In this document: positions 53,137-64,000 of the stretch, one piece after another
Numbering within the stretch: position 1 is the stretch's first letter
How the letters are laid out: each line of letters begins with the position of its first letter
Source: Acidimicrobiaceae bacterium
Lineage (GTDB): Bacteria; Actinomycetota; Acidimicrobiia; Acidimicrobiales; RAAP-2
NCBI GenBank assembly: GCA_003133325.1
Contig: PKXA01000072.1
Span: 1-64,000 of the forward strand
DNA length: 64,000 bases
Direction: 5' to 3'
The notes under the pieces: model-generated
Database searches by the model: none
Told to the model about the DNA's origin: nothing
Seen by the model: the letters and a program-made list of their open reading frames with translations, nothing else
Made by a program: the position numbers and the translations under genes

Positions 53137-54789
53137 TCATCTCGTCGTCTTGGCGACGGAGAAACCCGACGTGGCCCAGAACCGGCAACGCGACGCCAAC
53201 ATGTTCGTCTTCACCGAAATCGGAGTATTCAACGACACGTACTGCCCACCCAGCTTCGACAACTCCGGCCATACCAGTCCCCCTCCGGCCGGATTGCCGG
53301 TAGCGGCGAAGCGGGCCCAGGCGCCACTGATGGTTGTGGCCAGCTTCTGTTGCGCCGGAGTGAAGGCGATTCCCCCACTCGATTCGACCGGCCCGTCAAA
53401 GACGTAGGGAAGCTCACTGGAGTGGAACGCACCGAGGTCGATCCCCGGCGCTGGCAACACAAACGGGTTGGGGGTCTGGTCGTACTCGTACTCGTAGACC
53501 GGGACGTACTTCGAGAGCACCCCGGCACTCGCCACTGCCGGGCAGGCCAGCACGGCATCGCCGATGGCCTGGCCGAATGCCGCACCGGCATCCGGGTAGG
53601 CGGAGAGTGGATACTCCTGTTGCACCTTCGCCCCCACCGTGGAACCGAAGTAGGTATCGACCGCAGGGACCCACTGGGCATCGGTGAGGTTGTTGCCCAT
53701 CAGGTTGTAGTGGAGGTCGACAAACAGTCGGCCTTCATCCCGATTGGCCCCGACAATCATCGGGACATGGTGGAAGTGGCCACTGCTCAAGGCGGCACCC
53801 GGATCGATGGGCAGGGTAACCCCGTCGCTGACCGGGTCCCAGGTGGCACCAGAACCGAAGAGAAATGACGGATCCGGCGGCATGGCCAAGGCGACCTGTC
53901 GAGCCGGTTTCGACCGCATGCAGTCCAACAGGTCCGGGCCAGAGGTGCACCCCAACTTCGATGCCAGCGCGGCTCCCTGGGTTTCCGCCGCATTGAGGGC
54001 CATGGTGGGAAGTGTGCAAGGGCCACTTTCGGTGATCCCTTTTTGGAACAGGCCCGCCGACCTCGGCGAAAGGAGCTGCGCGCAGACACTGATGCCGCCG
54101 GCCGACTCCCCAAAGATGGTCACGTTGTGCGGATCGCCGCCGAACCCGGCGATATTGGCCTGTACCCATCGCAGCGCCGCCTGCTGGTCGAGCAACCCGA
54201 GGTCACCGGTGGAATGGTGGGGGTCCTGCTGGGCCAGTGCCGGCAATGCCAAGAACCCGAGAGGCCCGAGCCGGTAGTTGAAGCTGACGGTGACCGTGTT
54301 GTCATTGGCGGCAAAGTTCGCCGGGCTGTCGTCAGTGGAACTGCCCACGGTGAAACCTCCGCCGTAGATCCACACCATCACCGGACGAGGTGTTGCCGGT
54401 ACCGCCTTGGGGGCGAACACGTTGAGATAGAGGCAGTCCTCGTTGCCGGTCAGGACATCGACCACCGGGGTGATCTGCGGACACTCGGCGCTGGCCTTGT
54501 CGGCGTCGAGAGTCGACGACCATGGCGTTGGCGGCTGCGGGGCTTGCCATCGGAGTACGCCCACCGGCGGCTGGGCGAAGGGGATGCCCAGGAACTGCCG
54601 AGTTGTCGCCGTGCTCACCCCGCTGACCAAACCATCGGCCGTCTTGACGAGCAACGGCTGAGACCACCTGTTGGGCTTCGTGCCCGATGTCCCCGGCGCC
54701 CCTGACGTGCCCGAAGACTCTGAGGACCCACACCCCCCCAGCCAGAGAACACTGCAGATCACAACCACGCAAGCGATCCCCCGGCGCAT
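53137..54789 (-). CDS. Type-B carboxylesterase, predicted lipoprotein
   Basis: About 550 residues from the ATG at 54789. The signal peptide ends in a WLGGC lipobox, followed by a Ser/Gly/Thr linker. The cholinesterase-type core has FLGIPFAQPPVGVLRW, NEDCLYLNVFAP, an oxyanion loop IYGGGFTVGS and nucleophile FGESAGG. The acid is likely in the NRDEGRLF region and the His in the GAFHSSELPYVF region. It is secreted and lipid-anchored, hydrolysing carboxylic esters of unknown identity. It stands alone. Confidence 0.87.
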   Translation of the reverse strand: MRRGIACVVVICSVLWLGGCGSSESSGTSGAPGTSGTKPNRWSQPLLVKTADGLVSGVSTATTRQFLGIPFAQPPVGVLRWQAPQPPTPWSSTLDADKASAECPQITPVVDVLTGNEDCLYLNVFAPKAVPATPRPVMVWIYGGGFTVGSSTDDSPANFAANDNTVTVSFNYRLGPLGFLALPALAQQDPHHSTGDLGLLDQQAALRWVQANIAGFGGDPHNVTIFGESAGGISVCAQLLSPRSAGLFQKGITESGPCTLPTMALNAAETQGAALASKLGCTSGPDLLDCMRSKPARQVALAMPPDPSFLFGSGATWDPVSDGVTLPIDPGAALSSGHFHHVPMIVGANRDEGRLFVDLHYNLMGNNLTDAQWVPAVDTYFGSTVGAKVQQEYPLSAYPDAGAAFGQAIGDAVLACPAVASAGVLSKYVPVYEYEYDQTPNPFVLPAPGIDLGAFHSSELPYVFDGPVESSGGIAFTPAQQKLATTISGAWARFAATGNPAGGGLVWPELSKLGGQYVSLNTPISVKTNMLASRCRFWATSGFSVAKTTR

Positions 54790-54862
54790 TTCCAAGAGGG
54801 TAGCGCCGCCAGTCCCCTGCTGTCCTCAACCGATGGCCCCTCAGTCCGCCCTCGGGCGCGGC

Positions 54863-54950: not shown

Positions 54951-56102
54951 TCAGATATCGAACTTCACCACGCCGCGGACATTGACTCCGGCCGCCAGGT
55001 CGTCATAGCCGTTCTGTACCTGATCGAGCGTGTATTCCTGGGTGATCAACTTGTCCACCTCGAGCAGGCCGGCCTGGTACAGACGGAGAAGATTCGGGAT
55101 CTGCACCCGCGGGCTGCACGAGCCGAAGACCGTTCCGAGCAGGGCCTGATTGAACATTGCCAGGTTGAACAGATTGAGCGTTACCTCTTCCTGGGTGATC
55201 GGAGCGATGGCCGTCGCCACCACCCGGCCGTCCTTGCTGGCTAACTGCACGGCGGGCCCGACCAGATCACCGGTGAGGACCCCGGGGGTGAGAATGACCA
55301 CGTCGGCCATGCGTCCCTCGGTGAGCTCGGGGAGCATCATGGCGGCTTCGAGGATGGAAGCCGCGCCATGGGTCGCGCCGATCTGCTTGGCCTTCTCCAC
55401 CTTGAAGGGCAGCGGGTCGACGGCGACGATGTAACGCGCCCCGCCGATCTTCGCCCCTTGGAGCGCGCCGGAGCCGACACCGCCACAGCCGATGACGACC
55501 ACCGTCTCTCCCGGCTTCACGGCAGCACGGTCGACGACCGAGCCGAATCCGGTGGCCAGTCCGCAGCTGATCAGGGCGGCGGCCTTCATCGACACCCCCG
55601 GATCGATCTTGACCAGCGAGTTCTCGTTGGCCAGCAGCGAATCGGTGAACGTCCCCAGCTGGGTCATCCGGTTCAGCTTCTGACCATCGAGGTGGTGACG
55701 CCACTGGCCGTCGCTCATCATCGGACCGGCCAGAATCGTCATCCCCAGATCGCAGAGGTACTGGCGGCCCGACGCGCACCAGTGGCAACGCCCGCACGAG
55801 GGGATGAATGACATGGCCACGTGGTCGCCCTCGGCCAACGTCTCGACGCCAGGCCCGACCTCGGAGACGATGCCCGCACCCTCGTGGCCGCCGACGATCG
55901 GGTAGAGGGAGTCGACCCCGAACACCGAGATTATCTCCGGCGGAGGCGCCATGTCGCCGGTGCGCAGGTGCTCATCGGAGTGACACATACCCGCATACGC
56001 CATCTGGACCCGCACCTCGTGCGGACCAGGGGCGTCGACTTCGATCTCTTCGACTTTCCAAGGTTCGTGGAGCCCTGTACAGACTGCTGCGCGGGTCTTC
56101 AT
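54951..56102 (-). CDS. Zinc alcohol dehydrogenase, nicotinoprotein (NDMA-dependent) type
   Basis: 383 residues. Catalytic zinc ligands C40 (GMCHSDEH) and GHE at 72-74 are present, and structural zinc cysteines C103, C106, C109 and C117. The Rossmann motif is VIGCGGVGSGALQGAKIGGARYIVAVD. The segment GDMAPPPEIISVFGVDSLYPIVGGHEGAG marks the NDMA-dependent branch, in which NAD(H) stays bound and electrons leave to an external acceptor. Mycofactocin is the proposed acceptor for this group. It lies 80 bp after mftR on the same strand, so the regulator and dehydrogenase are likely co-transcribed, divergently from the cofactor genes. Confidence 0.9.
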   Translation of the reverse strand: MKTRAAVCTGLHEPWKVEEIEVDAPGPHEVRVQMAYAGMCHSDEHLRTGDMAPPPEIISVFGVDSLYPIVGGHEGAGIVSEVGPGVETLAEGDHVAMSFIPSCGRCHWCASGRQYLCDLGMTILAGPMMSDGQWRHHLDGQKLNRMTQLGTFTDSLLANENSLVKIDPGVSMKAAALISCGLATGFGSVVDRAAVKPGETVVVIGCGGVGSGALQGAKIGGARYIVAVDPLPFKVEKAKQIGATHGAASILEAAMMLPELTEGRMADVVILTPGVLTGDLVGPAVQLASKDGRVVATAIAPITQEEVTLNLFNLAMFNQALLGTVFGSCSPRVQIPNLLRLYQAGLLEVDKLITQEYTLDQVQNGYDDLAAGVNVRGVVKFDI

Positions 56103-56182: not shown

Positions 56183-56878
56183 TCAGGCCCGGGATGACGA
56201 TGACTGTGGGCCACCGGCGACCCACAGTTCGAGCCGGTTCTCGTCGAAACCGGTAGCCAACAGCCGGAACGCCCGGTCAACCTCGCCGGTCAGGTCATCG
56301 CTGTCGTGGCGGGCCCAACAGGCAAAGGCCGCCATCGCCGCACCCAGGGCGGCCCGAGCCGCCGTCTGTGGCCCGAGGCCCTCCGGAGATCCTCCGACCC
56401 GGCGAGCCACGAAGTCGGCCACCACGTCGCACCACTCGGCGTACCTCACCGCGGAGTGCGCCACCAGGGCCGGGACCGTGCTGATGAGGCCCATCCGGAT
56501 CCGCAACTCATCGAGCTCCCCGGCCCCGAATCGATTGGTCGCCACCACCGCCCTCCGCAGCACGTCCATCATCGGCTCGTCGCGGGGAGCACCCATCAGC
56601 TGGTCCCGGAGCCGAACCATTTCGGCGTCGAACTCCCCCCACACCACGTCGCGTTTGGAGTCGTAGTAGCGGAAGAACGTGCGCCGGCTGATCCCCACGG
56701 CCGAGGCGATCTCGTCGACGGTGGTGGCTTCGAACCCGCGGTGGTCGAAGAGGTCGAGGGCTTGGCGGGCGATGTGCTCTCGGGTGGTGCTGGGCCGGCG
56801 GCCGCGGGCCACATCGGCGGAAGGGCGGGCCGCGGGCGGCCCGACCCCCTCGGTCCCGCCCGTGTCCACATCGGCCAT
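56183..56878 (-). CDS. mftR: TetR-family regulator of the mycofactocin locus
   Basis: 231 residues from the ATG at 56878; an ATG at 56896 would place the start inside the palindromic operator. The N-terminal HTH reads ARQALDLFDHRGFEATTVDEIASAVGISRRTFFRYYDSKRDVVWGEFD, the exact MftR style (RTFFRYY.SK.DVVW). The C-terminal part (about 90-215) is all-helical and should bind an acyl-CoA-like ligand, as shown for mycobacterial MftR. It probably represses both itself with the dehydrogenase and mftABC from the shared intergenic region. Confidence 0.88.
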   Translation of the reverse strand: MADVDTGGTEGVGPPAARPSADVARGRRPSTTREHIARQALDLFDHRGFEATTVDEIASAVGISRRTFFRYYDSKRDVVWGEFDAEMVRLRDQLMGAPRDEPMMDVLRRAVVATNRFGAGELDELRIRMGLISTVPALVAHSAVRYAEWCDVVADFVARRVGGSPEGLGPQTAARAALGAAMAAFACWARHDSDDLTGEVDRAFRLLATGFDENRLELWVAGGPQSSSSRA

Positions 56879-56894
56879 AGGCTTCCATTCTGGC

Positions 56895-56915
56895 ATTGAG
56901 TGCTATAAAGTCAAT
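56895..56915. promoter_or_regulatory. Palindrome in the mftR-mftA intergenic region, putative MftR operator
   Basis: ATTGA.T (56895-56901) and A.TCAAT (56909-56915) form an imperfect 21-bp dyad around the TATAAA-like centre at 56904-56909. It lies 48 bp before mftA and 17 bp before the mftR ATG, where a TetR dimer would block transcription both ways. Confidence 0.55.
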
Positions 56916-56962: not shown

Positions 56963-57109
56963 ATGACTGGTCCTACTACCGGTAACCGCGATTCGTCGGT
57001 GCCCACCACCGTCACGTTGGCCGAGGAACGCACCGACGACGATCAATTCGTCGATGCAGAGCTGCTGGTCGAGGACGTGTCGATCGACGGCATGTGCGGC
57101 GTCTACTAA
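56963..57109 (+). CDS. mftA: Mycofactocin precursor peptide
   Basis: 48 residues preceded by GGGAGG. The C-terminus is IDGMCGVY, the invariant end of MftA peptides, whose final Val-Tyr is decarboxylated and cross-linked by MftC. The acidic middle (DDDQFVDAELLVEDVSIDG) is the conserved recognition region bound by MftB. A polar Thr/Ser/Pro-rich start (1-18) is variable. The gene is the first of a run of seven same-strand genes. Confidence 0.96.
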   Translation: MTGPTTGNRDSSVPTTVTLAEERTDDDQFVDAELLVEDVSIDGMCGVY

Positions 57110-57149
57110 GCCCCACGACGCCGATACCCGCCACGGCCCTGCACTGCTG

Positions 57150-57452
57150 ATGCCACCCACCGTCCCGGCTGGGACCACGTCTTTCGACTCCTCCCTTCCC
57201 TGGGCGCTGCACCCGCAGGTGTCTCTCAGACCGGAGACGTTCGGCGCACTGGCGTACCACTTCGGTACCCGACGGCTCTCCTTCTTGAAAAGCCCCACCC
57301 TGTTGGCGGTGGTGTCGTCCCTGGCCACCCAACCCACCGGTCGAGATGCCTGCACGGCGGCGGGAGTGGCGTCCGATGATCTTCCCGACTACGAACGGGC
57401 CCTGACCACGCTGGCCGAGTCCGGCATGATCTGCGAACGGAGATCGCCATGA
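57150..57452 (+). CDS. mftB: Mycofactocin peptide chaperone (PqqD-like recognition element)
   Basis: 100 residues from the ATG at 57150; the frame begins earlier but that part overlaps mftA. The family sequence WALHPQVSLRPETFGALAYHFGTRRLSFLKSP is clear, with a C-terminal helix ALTTLAESGMICER. MftB binds MftA and presents it to MftC. It overlaps mftC by 4 bp (ATGA). No good Shine-Dalgarno is seen. Confidence 0.93.
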   Translation: MPPTVPAGTTSFDSSLPWALHPQVSLRPETFGALAYHFGTRRLSFLKSPTLLAVVSSLATQPTGRDACTAAGVASDDLPDYERALTTLAESGMICERRSP

Positions 57453-58723
57453 CCCTGGTCACCACCGAGCGCCCGACCACAGAGCGCCCGACCACCGGGC
57501 GATTGGTCGACCACTTCCAACTGGGCCTCGATGCCCCCATCTGCCTGACCTGGGAGCTCACCTACGCCTGCAACTTGGCATGCGTGCACTGCCTCTCGAG
57601 CTCGGGACGCCGCGATCCGAGGGAGCTGTCCACCGCCGAGTGCAAGGCCCTCATCGATGAGTTCGAGCGGATGCAGATCTTCTACGTCAACATCGGAGGC
57701 GGCGAGCCCACCATCCGTGGCGACTTCTGGGAGTTGGTCGACTATGCGACCGACCACCACGTCGGGGTGAAGTTCTCCACCAATGGATCGAGAATCACCC
57801 CCGAGGTGGCCGATCGACTGGCATCGAGCGACTACGTGGACGTGCAGATCTCCCTCGACGGCGCCACCTCCGACGTCAACGACGCGATACGGGGCGTCGG
57901 TTCCTTCGACACCGCCATCCGGGCCATGGAGCGGATGGCCGAGGCCGGCTTCGTCGGATTCAAACTCTCAGTGGTGGTCACCCGCCAGAACGTCTCCCAA
58001 CTCGACGCCTTCAAGGCACTCGCCGACAAGTACCAAGCCCAACTCCGGCTCACCCGGCTACGCCCCTCGGGGCGCGGGGCCGACGTGTGGGACGAGCTCC
58101 ATCCGACTGCCGACCAACAGCGGACACTGTATGCATGGCTGCTGGCCCACGGTGAGCAGGTACTGACCGGTGACTCCTTCTTCCATCTGGCCGGCTACGG
58201 CGAACCGCTCCCCGGGCTCAACCTGTGTGGCGCTGGTCGGGTGGTCTGCCTGGTCGACCCGGTCGGCGATGTCTACGCCTGCCCCTTCGCCATTCATGAC
58301 GAGTTTCTGGCCGGGAACGTGCGGTCCCCTGGTGGTTTCGACCGTGTCTGGAAGTCCTCCGACCTCTTCACCGACCTCCGCCGGCCCGATACCGGAGGAG
58401 CGTGTCTGTCTTGCGGAAGCTACGACGCCTGCCGGGGCGGGTGCATGGCGGCCAAGTTCTTCACAGGGCTTCCCCTCGACGGGCCCGACCCCGAGTGTGT
58501 GCTCGGCAACGGAGAGGCGTTGCTGGCCGCGGTGGGTGACACCGTGCTGCCTCAGCCATCGCCCGACCACTCACGCACGTCACCACGCACCGCCCCGGGC
58601 GGCCCGGGCCAGTCGGGTCCGTCGGCCACTCCGGTGGCGGTGGCCCTCCTCCCCCGCCGTGCTGATCGGGCCTGCGACGAGAATCCCCTCGCCGCCTTCG
58701 ACCCCCACAGCCACCCGCGCTGA
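57449..58723 (+). CDS. mftC: Mycofactocin radical SAM maturase
   Basis: 424 residues. The radical SAM cluster cysteines are C41, C45 and C48 (YACNLACVHC). GGGEPTIRGDF binds the SAM amino group. The C-terminal SPASM domain carries further cysteines in LCGAGRVVCLVDPVGDVYACPF and CLSCGSYDACRGGC for two auxiliary Fe-S clusters. MftC oxidatively decarboxylates the Tyr of MftA and then joins it to Val. A low-complexity Pro/Ser tail (about 355-424) follows the SPASM domain. Confidence 0.96.
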   Translation: MTLVTTERPTTERPTTGRLVDHFQLGLDAPICLTWELTYACNLACVHCLSSSGRRDPRELSTAECKALIDEFERMQIFYVNIGGGEPTIRGDFWELVDYATDHHVGVKFSTNGSRITPEVADRLASSDYVDVQISLDGATSDVNDAIRGVGSFDTAIRAMERMAEAGFVGFKLSVVVTRQNVSQLDAFKALADKYQAQLRLTRLRPSGRGADVWDELHPTADQQRTLYAWLLAHGEQVLTGDSFFHLAGYGEPLPGLNLCGAGRVVCLVDPVGDVYACPFAIHDEFLAGNVRSPGGFDRVWKSSDLFTDLRRPDTGGACLSCGSYDACRGGCMAAKFFTGLPLDGPDPECVLGNGEALLAAVGDTVLPQPSPDHSRTSPRTAPGGPGQSGPSATPVAVALLPRRADRACDENPLAAFDPHSHPR

Positions 58724-58726
58724 CAG

Positions 58727-60688
58727 GTGGCCAGCCTGGTCGACGCCATCACCGTGGCCGGAAGAACCGCCTCTTCGAGGGTGATCTTCGGTCCCCACGA
58801 GACCAATTTGGGCGATGACCGTGCCATCAGCCATCGTCACGTGGCCTACTACCAGGCCAGGGCGGCGGGGGGCAGCGGCATCATCGTGACCGAGACGGCC
58901 TCGGTGCACCCGTCGGACTGGCCCTATGAACGTGCGCCGCTGGCCACCGAGTGCGGGCCCGGGTGGGCGGCCACTGCTGCCGCCTGTCACCCGCACGGGA
59001 CCCTGGTGATCGCCGGACTGGGCCACGCCGGCGGACAGGGATCCAGCGCGTACTCCCAATCGGTGATGTGGGCGCCCTCGTCGGTGGCCGATGCCATCAA
59101 CCGCGAGATGCCCATGGAGATGGAGCAGGACGAGATCGACCAGCTGGTGGCCGGATTCGCCCACGCCGCCCGATTGGCCGCCGCCTCGGGTCTCGACGGT
59201 GTGGAGATCGACATCGGTCCCTTCTCGTTGCTGCGCCAGTTCCATTCGGGCCTGACCAACCTGCGGGACGACGGCTACGGGACCGACAGGTTGCGGCTGA
59301 CGGTCGAGGTGGTGGCCGCGGTGCGCCATGCGATCGGCGACGATCACCTGGTGTCGGTCCGGCTGTGCTGCGATGAGCTGGCCCCGTGGGCGGGGGTCAC
59401 TCCCGACCACGCCGCCGATCACGTTGCGGCTCTGGCCGACCAGGTGGACCTGGTGGTGGTGGTTCGGGGTGGCCCGTTCTCCGCGTCCGCCTATCGTCCC
59501 GCCGGCCATACCCCGGCCACCTTCAATGCCGACCTGTGCCGGCGCATGCGTGGGTCAGCGGAGGGCCGGGTGCCGGTGGTGCTGCAGGGAAGCGTGATCG
59601 ACCCCGGGGTGGCCCAAGCCGCGCTGGACGACGGCACCGCCGACCTGGTGGAGATGACCCGGGCCCAGATCGCCGACCCGCGGCTCGTCACCCTGTTCCG
59701 CAACGGGGCGGCGCAAAGGATTCGCCCCTGCATTCTCTGCAATCAGGCCTGTCGCGTGCGCGACAACCGCAATCCCATCGTGAGCTGTGTGGGTGAGCCG
59801 CGTAGTGGCCACGAGACCACCGACCCGGATACCTGGGGCACTGACCCGGTAGGCGTCGATGTTCTGGTGGTGGGGGGTGGAGTGGCCGGCCTCGAGTGCG
59901 CCCGGGTGCTGGCCGGTCGGGGCCACCGGGTGCGGTTGGTTGAACGGGACCGGCAGCTGGGCGGAGCGGCACGAACTGCGGCGGTGGGCCCGGGCCGCGA
60001 GCGGATGGCCGACCTGGCCGAGTGGCTGGCCGGCGAGTGCCGGGTATCGGGGGTGAAGGTGGACCTCGGCACCGAGCTCACCTCCTCTGATCTCGACGGC
60101 GCCGCTGAACAGGGCACCGCGGTGGTCATCGCCACCGGCTCCAGGCCGTTGCCGTTCGAGATTCCCGTCGACGAAACCATCACCGTGGTCGATGTGGCCT
60201 GGTTGCTGGCGGGAGGCCCGGACCGGCTCCCGGTCGGCCGGGTGGTGGTCCACGATCCGGTGGGCGGACCTGTCGCCGTCGGCGCGGCCGAATGGCTGGC
60301 GGGCGAGGGGCGCGAGGTGGCGATCGTCACCTCCGATCAGATCGTCGGCACCCAGCTGGCGCTCACCGGAGACCTGGCCGATGCCAATACCCGGTTACAA
60401 CGCGCCGGGGTGAAACGCGAGCTCCGGTCCATCCTCCGAGGGGCGAAGGGTGGCCGGGCCCAGCTCGACGACGTCTGGACCGGGGAGCGTCGGGAGATCG
60501 ACTGCGCCGTCATCGTCGACTGCAACCATCGACTGCCGGAGGAAGCGTTGTACCTGGAGCGGCCGGGGACGCCGCGGGCCGGGGACTGCGTGGCGCCCCG
60601 CACCGTGCTCGAAGCGATACTGGAAGGGCGCCGGCGAGCACTGGAGATCGGAAGCGGCGCCCACGTCGGAAAAGAGAACGCCAGGTGA
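58727..60688 (+). CDS. Mycofactocin-system FadH/OYE-family oxidoreductase 1
   Basis: 653 residues from a GTG three bases after the mftC stop. The N-terminal TIM barrel binds FMN. A 4Fe-4S motif follows (CILCNQACRVRDNRNPIVSC, near 335-355), then FAD- and NAD-binding domains (VLVVGGGVAGLECARVLAGRG near 375). This is the 2,4-dienoyl-CoA reductase (FadH) plan. The barrel motif that in OYE enzymes reads H..L..FLSP..N.R.D.YGG is changed here to GPFSLLRQFHSGLTNLRDDGYG, losing the usual histidine and FLSP. Substrate handling is therefore probably altered. Confidence 0.88.
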   Translation: MASLVDAITVAGRTASSRVIFGPHETNLGDDRAISHRHVAYYQARAAGGSGIIVTETASVHPSDWPYERAPLATECGPGWAATAAACHPHGTLVIAGLGHAGGQGSSAYSQSVMWAPSSVADAINREMPMEMEQDEIDQLVAGFAHAARLAAASGLDGVEIDIGPFSLLRQFHSGLTNLRDDGYGTDRLRLTVEVVAAVRHAIGDDHLVSVRLCCDELAPWAGVTPDHAADHVAALADQVDLVVVVRGGPFSASAYRPAGHTPATFNADLCRRMRGSAEGRVPVVLQGSVIDPGVAQAALDDGTADLVEMTRAQIADPRLVTLFRNGAAQRIRPCILCNQACRVRDNRNPIVSCVGEPRSGHETTDPDTWGTDPVGVDVLVVGGGVAGLECARVLAGRGHRVRLVERDRQLGGAARTAAVGPGRERMADLAEWLAGECRVSGVKVDLGTELTSSDLDGAAEQGTAVVIATGSRPLPFEIPVDETITVVDVAWLLAGGPDRLPVGRVVVHDPVGGPVAVGAAEWLAGEGREVAIVTSDQIVGTQLALTGDLADANTRLQRAGVKRELRSILRGAKGGRAQLDDVWTGERREIDCAVIVDCNHRLPEEALYLERPGTPRAGDCVAPRTVLEAILEGRRRALEIGSGAHVGKENAR

Positions 60689-60692
60689 TCCG

Positions 60693-62669
60693 ATGACCGG
60701 CGGCAGCCAGTACCGCCATCTCTTCACGCCCCTGCGTCTCGGGCCGGTCACGGTCCGCAACCGGATCGTGTTCTCGGCCCACCTCACCAACTACGCCGCC
60801 GACGGGCTGCCCACCGAGCAACACGCCGCCTACTACGCCGCCCGGGCGGCCGGGGGGAGCGGTCTGATCATCACCGAGGAACATTCCACCCACGTCACCG
60901 ACTGGCCGTACGAGAAGCTCATCCACGGTTTCAACCCGGCGGTGGTCCCGGGGTACCGGCGCATCACCGACGCGGTACATGCCCACGACGTTCCCATCTT
61001 CGCCCAGATCAACCACAATGGTGGGCAGGCATCGAGCATGTACAGCCGCCTGCCGGTATGGGCCCCTAGCCCGGTACCTGACCCGTTGTTCCGCGAGGTG
61101 CCCAAGGCGGTCGAGCTCCACGAGATCCACGAGATCGTGGCCGGCTACGCCACCGTGGCCGCACGCTGCATCGCCGGGGGCTTCGATGGAATCGAACTGC
61201 AGTGCTCCCACTCCTCCATCGTCAGGGGCTTCCTCTCCCCTGCCACCAACCGCCGTACCGACCGGTACGGGGGCCCGTTGGAGAACCGGGCACGGCTATT
61301 GCTCGAGATCGTCGACGCGGTGCGCGAGGCGATCGGCACCCACCAGGCCCTCGGTGTCCGCATCTGTGGAGACGAGCTCATCGAGGGGGGAACCGGCATT
61401 CACGACGCGGTCGAGGTGGCCAAGATGGTTGATGCCACCGGTCAGGTCGACTACATCAACACCTCGATCGGGGTGGCCACCGCCACGCTCTACATGATCG
61501 AGGCCAGCATGCAGGTGCCTCCGGGGTACGCCATGTACATTCCCAGTGCCATACGCGAGGCAGTGGGCGTGCCGGTGGTGGGTGTCGGGCGCTTCAAGGA
61601 CCCGCTGCAGGCGGACCGGGCCCTCGACGCGGGGCAGTGCGATCTGGTCGGGGTGGTCAGAGGCCAGATCGCCGACGCCGACTTCGCCGCCAAGGCCCGC
61701 TCCGGTCACGCCACCGACATCCGGACCTGCCTGTCGTGCAATCAGGAGTGTGTCGGCCGGATGGGTCTCAACCGGTGGCTCGGATGCATCGAGAATCCCC
61801 GGACCGGACGTGAGTCCATCCCCCTGCCCGTCCCGCAGAAACGGTCCAAGGTGGTGGTGGTGGTGGGCGGGGGCCCGGGCGGTCTCCAGGCGGCGGTGAC
61901 CGCTGCCGAGCGCGGGCACCGGGTGACCCTGTTCGAACGTCACGACCGCCTGGGTGGACAGGTTCTGGTGGCGGCCACCGTCCCCAGCCGGGCCGAGTTC
62001 CTCGATATCGCCCGCAACCTCATCGTGCATGCCCGCCGGGCCGGTGTCGAAATCCGCACCGGCACCGAAGCTGATGCCGACTCGATCCGAGCCGAACAAC
62101 CCGACGCGGTGATCGTGGCCACCGGCGCCCGCCCGTCCCGCCCGTGGTGGGCCAGGGACCACCGCCGGGTGGTCGACATCCGCGACGTGCTCGAGGGCCG
62201 GGTATCTCCCGAAGGCGACGTGGTGGTGGTCGACGAACTCGGATTCCATCAGGCCACGTCGACGGCCGAGTTGCTGGCCGACCGGGGCTGCCGGGTGGAG
62301 ATCGTCACCAACGGCATGGTCGTCGGCCAAGATCTGGGAATCACCCTCGACATGGAGACCTGGAACGTGAAAGCCCACGCCAAGGGGATCACCCAGAGTG
62401 TGGATCTGGTCCCGATGGGAGCCGGTCCCATCGAGGAAGGCCCGCATCCCGGTGGTGTGGACCTATCGCTGCAACACCACCCCACCGGCACCGACCAGCA
62501 ACGCCACTGCGACTGGGTGGTCTGCTCCGTCCAACAGCAACCTGATGACGTTCTGTGGTCGGCCCTGCGCCACTCCCCCTTCGACGTCTACCGCATCGGG
62601 GACTGCCTGGCCCCCCGGCGCGCCCACGCCGCGGTGATCGAGGGCCACCGGGTGGCGGTGGCACTGTGA
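60693..62669 (+). CDS. Mycofactocin-system FadH/OYE-family oxidoreductase 2
   Basis: 658 residues from the ATG at 60693 (MTGGSQYRHLFTPLRLG); a longer frame lies in the preceding gene. The same plan applies: FMN barrel with intact CSHSSIVRGFLSPATNRRTDRYGG, Fe-S motif CLSCNQECVGRMGLNRWLGC (about 345-364), then VVVVGGGPGGLQAAVTAAERGH for FAD. It should pass electrons from NAD(P)H through FAD and the Fe-S cluster to FMN, or the reverse. Tight linkage to mftC and its twin suggests a role in reducing or reoxidising the cofactor or a linked substrate. Confidence 0.9.
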   Translation: MTGGSQYRHLFTPLRLGPVTVRNRIVFSAHLTNYAADGLPTEQHAAYYAARAAGGSGLIITEEHSTHVTDWPYEKLIHGFNPAVVPGYRRITDAVHAHDVPIFAQINHNGGQASSMYSRLPVWAPSPVPDPLFREVPKAVELHEIHEIVAGYATVAARCIAGGFDGIELQCSHSSIVRGFLSPATNRRTDRYGGPLENRARLLLEIVDAVREAIGTHQALGVRICGDELIEGGTGIHDAVEVAKMVDATGQVDYINTSIGVATATLYMIEASMQVPPGYAMYIPSAIREAVGVPVVGVGRFKDPLQADRALDAGQCDLVGVVRGQIADADFAAKARSGHATDIRTCLSCNQECVGRMGLNRWLGCIENPRTGRESIPLPVPQKRSKVVVVVGGGPGGLQAAVTAAERGHRVTLFERHDRLGGQVLVAATVPSRAEFLDIARNLIVHARRAGVEIRTGTEADADSIRAEQPDAVIVATGARPSRPWWARDHRRVVDIRDVLEGRVSPEGDVVVVDELGFHQATSTAELLADRGCRVEIVTNGMVVGQDLGITLDMETWNVKAHAKGITQSVDLVPMGAGPIEEGPHPGGVDLSLQHHPTGTDQQRHCDWVVCSVQQQPDDVLWSALRHSPFDVYRIGDCLAPRRAHAAVIEGHRVAVAL

Positions 62670-63748
62670 GGGGGCTCGATGCCGGACGACCGGTTGCGGT
62701 GGTGGTGGCCCGGGGTGGGCGATTGCCGGTCGGAGGCGACGAAGCGGTAGCGGAAGCCGGGGGGCTGGTGGTGGTGGTCGGCTCGGGCACCGACGAGGCG
62801 GCCCGGTCGCTGGCGGCCGCGGAACGGGCGTGGTTCTGCGAGACAGGTCCCGGCTTGCAGCCGGGAGCACTGGCGGCCGCCCTGGCCCCACTCCTCCACG
62901 GCGTGCCGTTGGTGGTGATGCCCTCGTCGCCGGACGGACGCGATCTTGCTCCCCGGGTGGCGGCGATCCTCGACCGTCCCTTCATTGCCCATGCCGTGTC
63001 CGTCTCCTTCCGGCCGGGCCCCGGACCGGACGGACCCAGCGGCACCAACGAGCACACCGGAGGTGTGGATGCCGAGGTGTCCCGCCTCGACGACCGGATC
63101 CTGGTGCCGGTAACGGTGGACGGCCCGGCGGTGGCCACCCTGGTTCCCGGCAGCCGCTCGGTGGTGCCGCGGCGACAACCATCACCCTGGGAGCCGGAGC
63201 CGGTGACCCTTTCCGGCCCCTCCCCCGGGGGTGGTCCCGGGAGCGGACCTCTCGACCCCCAGGTTGTCGAGATCTTGGAACCTGACCCCGCCACCATGGA
63301 CCTGGCCGACGCGGTGCGGGTGCTGGGAGGAGGGGCGGGTCTGGCCGCGGGCACATCCGACGATCGGGCCCGGGCCACCTTCGACCTGCTGGTGCAGGTC
63401 TCCGCCGCGCTGGGGGCGTCGGCCGGGGCCACCCGGGTTGTCACCGACGCCGGGTGGATCGGGTACGAACGTCAGATCGGAACCACCGGTGTCACCGTCG
63501 ACCCCGACCTCTACATCGCCTTGGGCGTATCCGGTGCCACCCAGCACGTAGGTGGGCTCGGGGCACCCCGTCACGTGGTGAGTGTGAACACCGATCCATC
63601 GTGCCCGATGACCGCCATGGCCGATCTGGGTCTCATCACCGACGGACGCGGGCTGTTGATCGAGTTGGCCCGCCGGTTGAACGTCGTGATTCCCACCGGC
63701 GTCCTGACCGGCCACGGCCCGGGCGACATCGAGGGTGGCCATGGGTAA
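62666..63748 (+). CDS. Mycofactocin-associated electron transfer flavoprotein alpha-like subunit
   Basis: 360 residues from the GTG at 62666, overlapping the previous stop (GTGA). The N-terminal half is a divergent ETF-fold domain, interrupted by a Gly/Pro-rich stretch near 190-210. The C-terminal FAD domain is clear: GASAGATRVVTDAGWIGY, QIGTTGVTVDPDLYIALGVSGATQH and SVNTDPSCPMTAMADLGLITD, matching ETF-alpha motifs. It carries electrons from flavin dehydrogenases to ETF:quinone oxidoreductase. No ETF-beta gene is visible in the window. Confidence 0.86.
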   Translation: MRGLDAGRPVAVVVARGGRLPVGGDEAVAEAGGLVVVVGSGTDEAARSLAAAERAWFCETGPGLQPGALAAALAPLLHGVPLVVMPSSPDGRDLAPRVAAILDRPFIAHAVSVSFRPGPGPDGPSGTNEHTGGVDAEVSRLDDRILVPVTVDGPAVATLVPGSRSVVPRRQPSPWEPEPVTLSGPSPGGGPGSGPLDPQVVEILEPDPATMDLADAVRVLGGGAGLAAGTSDDRARATFDLLVQVSAALGASAGATRVVTDAGWIGYERQIGTTGVTVDPDLYIALGVSGATQHVGGLGAPRHVVSVNTDPSCPMTAMADLGLITDGRGLLIELARRLNVVIPTGVLTGHGPGDIEGGHG

Positions 63749-64000
63749 GGCCGACGTGGTTCCCACCCCCGGCGTCTCGTCCGACACCCCTGCCTTCGAT
63801 GCGGTGGTCGTGGGTGCCGGGCCGGCGGGCTCGGCGACGGCATTGGCCCTGGCCCGGGCCGGGCGATCGGTCGTCCTGGTCGAGCGCGGGCCGTTTCCCG
63901 GCTCCAAGAACGTCTACGGCGGGGTGGTCTACGGACGGGTCCTCGACGAGGTGGTTCCCGGGTGGTGGAACGAGGTCCCCGTGGAACGCTGGGTGGTCCG
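63741..64000 (+). CDS. FixC-like ETF:quinone oxidoreductase, N-terminal part (cut by window edge)
   Basis: 86 codons are visible from the ATG at 63741 (GTG at 63735 possible), overlapping the etfA-like stop. The FAD-binding motif VVVGAGPAGSATALALARAGRSVVLVERG is followed by GSKNVYGGVVYGRVL, the sequence seen after the dinucleotide fold in FixC and ETF-quinone oxidoreductases. It would link the ETF to the membrane quinone pool. The rest lies outside. Confidence 0.85.
   Translation, partial: MGKADVVPTPGVSSDTPAFDAVVVGAGPAGSATALALARAGRSVVLVERGPFPGSKNVYGGVVYGRVLDEVVPGWWNEVPVERWVV

Follow-up and report, generated by a model that had tools for sequence, protein, structure and literature searches.

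How an actinobacterium finishes the cofactor mycofactocin when mftD cannot be found is the question raised by a locus in an Acidimicrobiaceae bacterium (assembly GCA_003133325.1). The stretch that we analyzed, called the window here, is 64,000 nucleotides long and comprises positions 1–64000 of the 82,756-base contig PKXA01000072.1, with identical numbering in window and contig; the contig was read as far as 76000. In the available portions of earlier reports, the conversion of the precursor AHDP to premycofactocin is described as an oxidative deamination (PMC7491314), and mftD (TIGR03966) as common to most mycofactocin species without being universal (Haft 2011, PMC3023750). We did not find mftD anywhere in the assembly of the window's genome, within the limits of a draft of 4.05 Mb (96.55% complete, 133 contigs), the best match reaching 44 bits against a cut-off of 470.85. 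Its place at the locus is held by six genes in the order OYE_1 - OYE_2 - etfA - fixC - fixX - etfB, which we refer to as the cassette and which include those for an electron transfer flavoprotein (ETF). Roughly three in ten of the mycofactocin actinobacteria that we sampled are likewise missing mftD and have this flavoprotein-to-quinone gene set instead.

Gene identities were assigned from NCBIfam profile matches judged against curated cut-offs. By this measure, the mycofactocin cluster parts MftA (Val-Tyr core, GMCGVY end), MftB, MftC, MftE and MftF are all present, above their cut-offs. The locus shares mftR, mftA, mftB, mftC, mftE, mftF, a short-chain dehydrogenase/reductase (SDR) gene and an NDMA-type alcohol dehydrogenase (ADH) gene with the standard mftABCDEF cluster of mycobacteria, as described in the available text of Haft 2011 (PMC3023750), but differs from it in having the six genes where mftD would stand. 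Four of the cassette proteins score above the cut-offs of TIGR03996, TIGR03997, NF038209 and TIGR04503, models whose names state an association with mycofactocin rather than a tested function, and FixC and FixX have no such model. A first-pass annotation of the window had described mftA-B-C, two FadH/OYE enzymes, an ETF alpha subunit and FixC as one tight run, had counted the flavoprotein, ETF and FixC genes as part of the mycofactocin locus and had seen no mftD; the profile matches, the spacing and the search of the assembly bear this out. Its report of no mftE or mftF, and with it the idea that the finishing and glycosylation genes had been replaced, was mistaken. Both mftE (cleavage) and mftF (glycosylation) remain, a few kilobases downstream on the same contig, and they appeared to be lacking because the window ended at 64000. 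The etfB gene that it had proposed to look for beyond the window was found there too. Finally, it had held that mftD, mftE and mftF lying directly after the FixC gene would mark an ordinary locus with an insertion; beyond 64000, mftE and mftF are present, but mftD is absent.

The relation between mftD and the cassette was examined in genomes picked by mftC alone. A draw of 246 genomes from the class, at least 80% complete, yielded 60 with mftC above cut-off, the window's genome included, and a draw of 396 genomes from the phylum, at least 90% complete, yielded 38 further mftC genomes outside the class, giving 98 actinobacterial genomes in total. None of 14 named control genomes exceeded the curated cut-off for mftC, mftD, etfB, MftG or OYE_2, and because several controls give matches below cut-off, only matches above it were counted. 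Of these 98 genomes, 69 have mftD without the cassette, 28 have the cassette without mftD (26 passing one or more curated cut-offs and 2 judged by neighborhood), none has both, and neither is present in one (G156, an 88% complete genome whose mftC sits at the end of a contig). By draw, mftD was above cut-off in 35 of the 60 class genomes and 34 of the 38 phylum genomes. Neither OYE_2 (best 562 bits against a cut-off of 793) nor the mycofactocin-associated (mft) etfB exceeded its cut-off in any of the 69 mftD genomes. Among the 29 genomes without mftD, by comparison, 21 have etfB above cut-off (20 from the class, plus G272 from the phylum), and five further ones (G185, G194, G406, G517 and G529) have OYE_2 above cut-off; two more, with cassette genes adjoining mftC, fall slightly below the OYE_2 cut-off of 793, G126 at 764 bits and G155, where contig ends interrupt the match, at 787 bits. 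These counts of mutual exclusion are new here, as is the repeated switching described below. The substitution is no peculiarity of this locus and recurs across Actinomycetota.

In the mftD-bearing genome G165 (L066), mftR and mftB-mftC-mftD-mftE-SDR-mftF stand in the window's order, with mftD in place of the cassette. Of 80 named loci, 49 include both mftC and mftE, and all 49 have the full set of six genes in the same order between these two, sometimes with SDR and/or mftF also before mftE (in the remaining 31, the DNA covered does not include both mftC and mftE); the mftD query matched in none of the 80, with flanks of at most 10 kb to either side covered. The named loci closest to the window in OYE_2 (98%) come from Acidimicrobiia metagenome-assembled genomes (MAGs). 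Exclusion is not mere linkage, since mftD was still not found in five genomes in which the cassette is unlinked to mftC (G583, G588, G591, G592 and G595). These 80 named loci are the best 80 of 314 candidates from a scan with OYE_2 as the anchor, and 42 of them were searched as genomes. The cassette goes with mycofactocin, because mftC is above cut-off in 39 of these 42, the other three being MAG records (loci L084, L090 and L143). Among the best 80 of the 314 loci there was no clear center outside Actinomycetota, and our claims are therefore confined to that phylum.

Some variation in arrangement was also observed. At seven loci from Frankia, Pseudofrankia, Solirubrobacter and others (L086, L095, L106, L112, L116, L120 and L138), OYE_1-OYE_2(-ETF-Fix) lies away from mftC, and at L086, L106, L112 and L138 an mftR-like gene accompanies it. 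L116 is labeled Acidobacteriota; its cassette scores are near those of the Actinomycetes MAG L120, perhaps reflecting an error of label or binning. In the Acidimicrobiia loci L046 and L077–L081, an SDR-like match directly precedes OYE_2 (at loci that include both OYE genes, it falls between the two), a feature absent from the window.

Exchange between the two states has occurred repeatedly. An mftC tree built with LG+C20 from 80 sampled rows, which omits G156, G191 and 16 mftD-bearing genomes of the phylum draw, shows 13 changes between mftD and cassette (11–13 over bootstraps), of which 6 are forced by starred branches and one appears in 0% of bootstraps. All six independent pairs on starred branches are opposite in state (p 0.031), a test that simply counts exclusion on independent branches because every row has exactly one state. 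A quick mftC tree of 97 rows, made up of the same 80 and 17 chosen loci of named genomes, has 20 changes, 9 of them forced. Whole-operon inheritance as the sole cause of the pattern finds no support in this switching, although several long branches in the mftC trees leave single joins unsure.

Which part of the cassette matters is indicated by a small family of loci, f77 (L197–L199, in G406, G517 and G529), in which mftC is followed by OYE_2, etfA, fixC and fixX with no OYE_1 found beside them. The mftC matches in this family are weak (325–340 bits), and MftA ends in VDGICGVY in two of the three. Only G517 gives a clear indication, because G406 and G529 hold 8 and 9 TIGR03997 matches at 1e-100, as against one in G517. 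This genome has mftA, mftC, OYE_2, etfA, fixC, fixX and an etfB-like open reading frame (ORF) but no mftD, which suggests that OYE_2 is the decisive component.

The window's OYE_2 falls within TIGR03997 (Table 1). Its cluster cysteines (346, 349, 353 and 365) are invariant in the alignment, and the motif occurs in 100 of 101 OYE_2 stretches. In FadH-type reductases, a second dinucleotide motif, GxGGxG, serves NADPH. This motif is altered in OYE_2: the window's protein has D-E-L-G-F-H aligned to GCGGIGFD of FadH, 95 of 101 stretches have D-x-x-GFH at the second nucleotide site, and some GxGxx[GA] follows residue 470 in 8 of 101. In OYE_1, cysteines 335, 338, 342 and 354 do not vary across 11 aligned rows, and D-P-x-G stands near the second nucleotide site; its motif counts (cysteine motif 69/88) come from partial tblastn stretches and were left unused. 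A structure model of OYE_2 (11 alignment rows, pLDDT 73.8, pTM 0.69) has eight full-length matches, namely 2-naphthoyl-CoA reductase (NCR, two entries), FadH, trimethylamine dehydrogenase (TMADH, two), histamine dehydrogenase (two) and 6-hydroxypseudooxynicotine (6-HPON) amine oxidase, with Z scores of 37–40 and root-mean-square deviations of 3.2–4.1 over 594–613 residues, values too close for ranking. The sequence profile of OYE_2 likewise matches these enzymes along their whole length. The model predicts the three-domain fold of TMADH and histamine dehydrogenase with its four cluster cysteines (full-length alignment, Z 37–38), and this full-length fold is common to the histamine (3k30, 6de6) and trimethylamine (2tmd) dehydrogenases. 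The D-rich loop of 3k30, 6de6 and 6l6j aligns with D-x-x-GFH of OYE_2.

The remaining cassette genes supply a possible electron path. EtfA and EtfB match solved ETFs, with which the C-terminal FAD domain of EtfA aligns, and the closest solved counterparts of the fixC and fixX products are chains C and D, respectively, of the EtfABCX / FixABCX complex 7koe, so that the four homologues of that complex occur together at the locus; EtfB is divergent. Adjacency of etfA, etfB, fixC and fixX suggests that OYE_2 may be an ETF-reducing amine dehydrogenase (EC 1.5.8). A similar arrangement exists for 6-hydroxypseudooxynicotine dehydrogenase Pno/HisD (6l6j), which resembles OYE_2 in its full-length fold, the lack of a covalent-FMN cysteine, the altered NADPH motif and the adjoining ETF and quinone reductase genes, although OYE_2 is only 25–26% identical to 6l6j, and FixC and FixX stand here in place of a one-chain ETF-quinone oxidoreductase. 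According to the available part of a study of Pno (PMC7688666), that enzyme, 82% identical to the 6l6j enzyme and with non-covalent FMN, passes amine electrons to EtfAB and then to coenzyme Q via the ETF-quinone reductase of the same cluster, using neither NAD(P), oxygen nor ferredoxin. TMADH is likewise described, in the sources partly available to us, as handing electrons from its 4Fe-4S center to its ETF.

These results are consistent with a model, which we consider probable though by a distance not certain, in which the cassette takes the place of MftD. MftA, MftB, MftC, MftE and MftF would act as usual, with MftC cyclizing the Val-Tyr core, MftE releasing AHDP and MftF attaching sugars. 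OYE_2 would deaminate AHDP in place of MftD and, docking on this particular ETF, would pass the electrons through EtfAB and FixC/FixX to quinone; OYE_1 would perhaps be a second dehydrogenase or a subunit acting on the same ETF. An ETF-coupled amine dehydrogenase that brings its own quinone reductase, occupies the mftD slot and excludes mftD would be the simplest account. A route to the quinone pool, foreseen in the first-pass annotation as a respiratory exit, is the likely sense of the flavoprotein genes.

OYE_1 may, in addition, be involved in recycling. A tentative extension of the model, which we think rather unlikely as a whole, has OYE_2 deaminating AHDP and OYE_1 re-oxidizing mycofactocinol, the role of MftG, with both delivering electrons via EtfAB and FixC/FixX to menaquinone; if this were true, one ETF would serve the birth of the cofactor and its recycling, and both the making and the turnover of mycofactocin would be wired into respiration. 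A recycling role for OYE_1 would be insufficient alone for the pattern, because MftG (TIGR03970) is above cut-off in 0 of 60 class genomes, 18 of 38 phylum genomes and 2 of 42 OYE_2-anchored genomes. We regard it as unlikely that recycling is what both OYE enzymes do, oxidizing reduced mycofactocin and feeding EtfAB, FixCX and quinone, a counterpart of the GMC enzyme MftG of mycobacteria, with AHDP deaminated otherwise. Such a path would suit the roughly 25% of mftC genomes without MftG, whose stand-in is posed as an open question in the available text of PMC11778925, as well as the absence of MftG above cut-off from all 28 cassette genomes of the mftC-picked sample, its scarcity among the anchored genomes and the four single-mftC genomes that carry mftD and the cassette together. 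However, the 35 class genomes with mftD also have no MftG above cut-off, and none of these has OYE_2 above cut-off, so that being without MftG does not make the cassette necessary; it is mftD that the cassette excludes. One of three MftG model families was searched. We also considered a cassette forced into being by the lack of MftG, an idea unsupported in the class by these same 35 genomes. In the window's own genome, TIGR03970, one of the three MftG models, gave no match at 1e-50.

A variant product, raised in the first-pass annotation, would arise if cassette strains left AHDP un-deaminated and the flavoproteins used or modified an amino-type cofactor. According to the available part of PMC7491314, an mftD deletion in M. 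smegmatis accumulates glycosylated AHDP, and MftF therefore accepts AHDP. Nevertheless, the locus does not call for such a product, which seems to us quite unlikely: the Val-Tyr core of MftA is the standard one, mycofactocin-linked ADH and SDR genes sit in the locus, and a methylated mycofactocin from S. erythraea is cited in the available text of PMC11162802, although mftD may be present elsewhere in that genome. It is very unlikely, in our view, that the cassette is simply a mycofactocin client, for example for ene-reduction of a linked substrate, traveling with one type of operon. Whole-operon transfer would produce such linkage, and the modeled OYE_2 has its best structural matches in NCR and FadH, but the cassette has switched at least 13 times on the mftC tree, mftD was not found in the five genomes with an unlinked cassette, and the NADPH motif of FadH is altered in OYE_2. 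The EtfABCX complex bifurcates. With FixC and FixX closest to its chains C and D in 7koe, EtfAB-FixC-FixX might supply low-potential electrons to the radical SAM enzyme MftC, with the OYE enzymes separate; this is highly improbable, given that 69 of the 98 mftC genomes are without the cassette and that neither the exclusion of mftD nor the fixed order with OYE_2 would be explained.

Several observations weigh against replacement of MftD by the cassette. In the OYE_2-anchored set, mftD is above cut-off in 6 of the 42 genomes, which thus have it alongside OYE_2, making the exclusion strong rather than absolute. Two of the six (G609 and G621) have mftD beside a second mftB-mftC, and four (G586, G593, G607 and G619) have a single mftC each, with mftD apart from the mft genes; a further genome, G590, has an mftD match of 420 bits, slightly below cut-off. 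Four of the six Saccharopolyspora genomes tested carry mftD, all among these double holders, and S. erythraea becomes less telling as evidence for that reason. The arrangement is looser among the sampled genomes of the class: in six of them (G019, G051, G117, G146, G208 and G243), the ETF part lies on a different contig from mftC or more than 30 kb away. OYE_2 has Leu in 101 of 101 stretches at the position of the FMN-carrying Cys of histamine dehydrogenase, a site with Cys in 3k30 and 6de6 and Ala in 6l6j. By score, it lies no closer to the amine dehydrogenases than to the reductases NCR and FadH, the best overall scores being those to E. coli FadH (1ps9) and NCR (6qkg); OYE_2 does not retain the GCGGIG of FadH, but NCR likewise departs from that motif. 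Electrons could also run in the other direction, because FixC and FixX are nearest to a bifurcating complex. As a separate observation, at L155–L159 (G607, G619, G593, G586 and G609, all with the cassette and with mftD above the TIGR03966 cut-off), mftD is the only one of the 14 query genes to occur within the 9–15 kb covered.

Clusters of this kind have been reported before: the available text of BGCFlow 2024 (PMC11162802) describes Saccharopolyspora clusters with TIGR03966 (mftD) missing and TIGR03997 (OYE_2) present, and names no ETF/FixCX genes, mutual exclusion or mechanism there. That text also relates that the antiSMASH 6.1.1 rule requires mftD. Cluster finders with this requirement mislabel cassette loci, which a rule of "mftC plus mftD or OYE_2/ETF" would catch. 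Our literature search, whose coverage left most subscription journals outside, found no paper tying mycofactocin to an electron transfer flavoprotein. The missing mftD together with the cassette suggests, without proof yet, a different electron route for finishing the cofactor. Two open points become testable, namely how the cofactor is finished without mftD and how it is linked to respiration without MftG, the latter named as open in the available part of PMC11778925. If the cassette does replace MftD, a biosynthetic flavoenzyme would clearly have given way, many times over, to an ETF-coupled enzyme to which it is unrelated.

Table 1. Genes of the mycofactocin locus on contig PKXA01000072.1, with the best-matching model or solved chain
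Gene and product	Position	Strand	Match
NDMA-dependent (mycofactocin-associated) zinc alcohol dehydrogenase	54951..56102	-	TIGR03989, 484 bits, cut-off 440
mftR, mycofactocin-system regulator (TetR family), oriented divergently to mftA	56183..56896	-	TIGR03968, 241 bits, cut-off 225
mftA, precursor peptide ending SIDGMCGVY	56963..57109	+	TIGR03969, 50 bits, cut-off 25
mftB, peptide chaperone	~57150..57452	+	TIGR03967, 108 bits, cut-off 33
mftC, radical SAM/SPASM maturase	57449..58723	+	TIGR03962, 649 bits, cut-off 265
OYE_1, FMN / 4Fe-4S / FAD-or-ADP oxidoreductase (cofactors by homology)	58727..60688	+	TIGR03996, 951 bits, cut-off 628
OYE_2, FMN / 4Fe-4S / FAD-or-ADP oxidoreductase (cofactors by homology), proposed MftD substitute	60693..62669	+	TIGR03997, 995 bits, cut-off 793.15
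mft etfA, mycofactocin-associated ETF alpha; GTG start overlaps OYE_2 stop	62666..63748	+	NF038209, 421 bits, cut-off 240
fixC, FixC-like flavoprotein	63735..65087 (crosses window edge at 64000)	+	7koe_C (FixC) closest solved chain, 257 bits
fixX	65084..65422 (beyond window)		7koe_D, 60 bits
mft etfB	65419..66387 (beyond window)		TIGR04503, 328 bits, cut-off 200
mftE	66384..67085 (beyond window)		TIGR03964, 275 bits, cut-off 172
SDR, mycofactocin-coupled	67082..67867 (beyond window)		TIGR04504, 337 bits, cut-off 250
mftF	67864..69294 (beyond window)		TIGR03965, 387 bits, cut-off 280

The mftA match is the sole one in the genome. The start of mftB was set at the ATG after mftA, the TIGR03967 match beginning at residue 47 of the ORF 57054–57452, and the fixC product scores 333 bits against NF007542, under that model's cut-off of 610. 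From mftC to fixC, successive genes are separated by gaps of 3 and 4 bases or overlap by 4 and 14, and from mftB onward all neighbors overlap or sit 3–4 bases apart, so a single transcript is likely; a scan of the gene run gave two promoter-like sites (0.9 expected) and two terminator-like sites (3.0 expected), with nothing clear among them. Beside the NDMA-type alcohol dehydrogenase gene, positions 53137–54795 on the minus strand encode a carboxylesterase-like protein, named by eye only, with a lipoprotein-type start.

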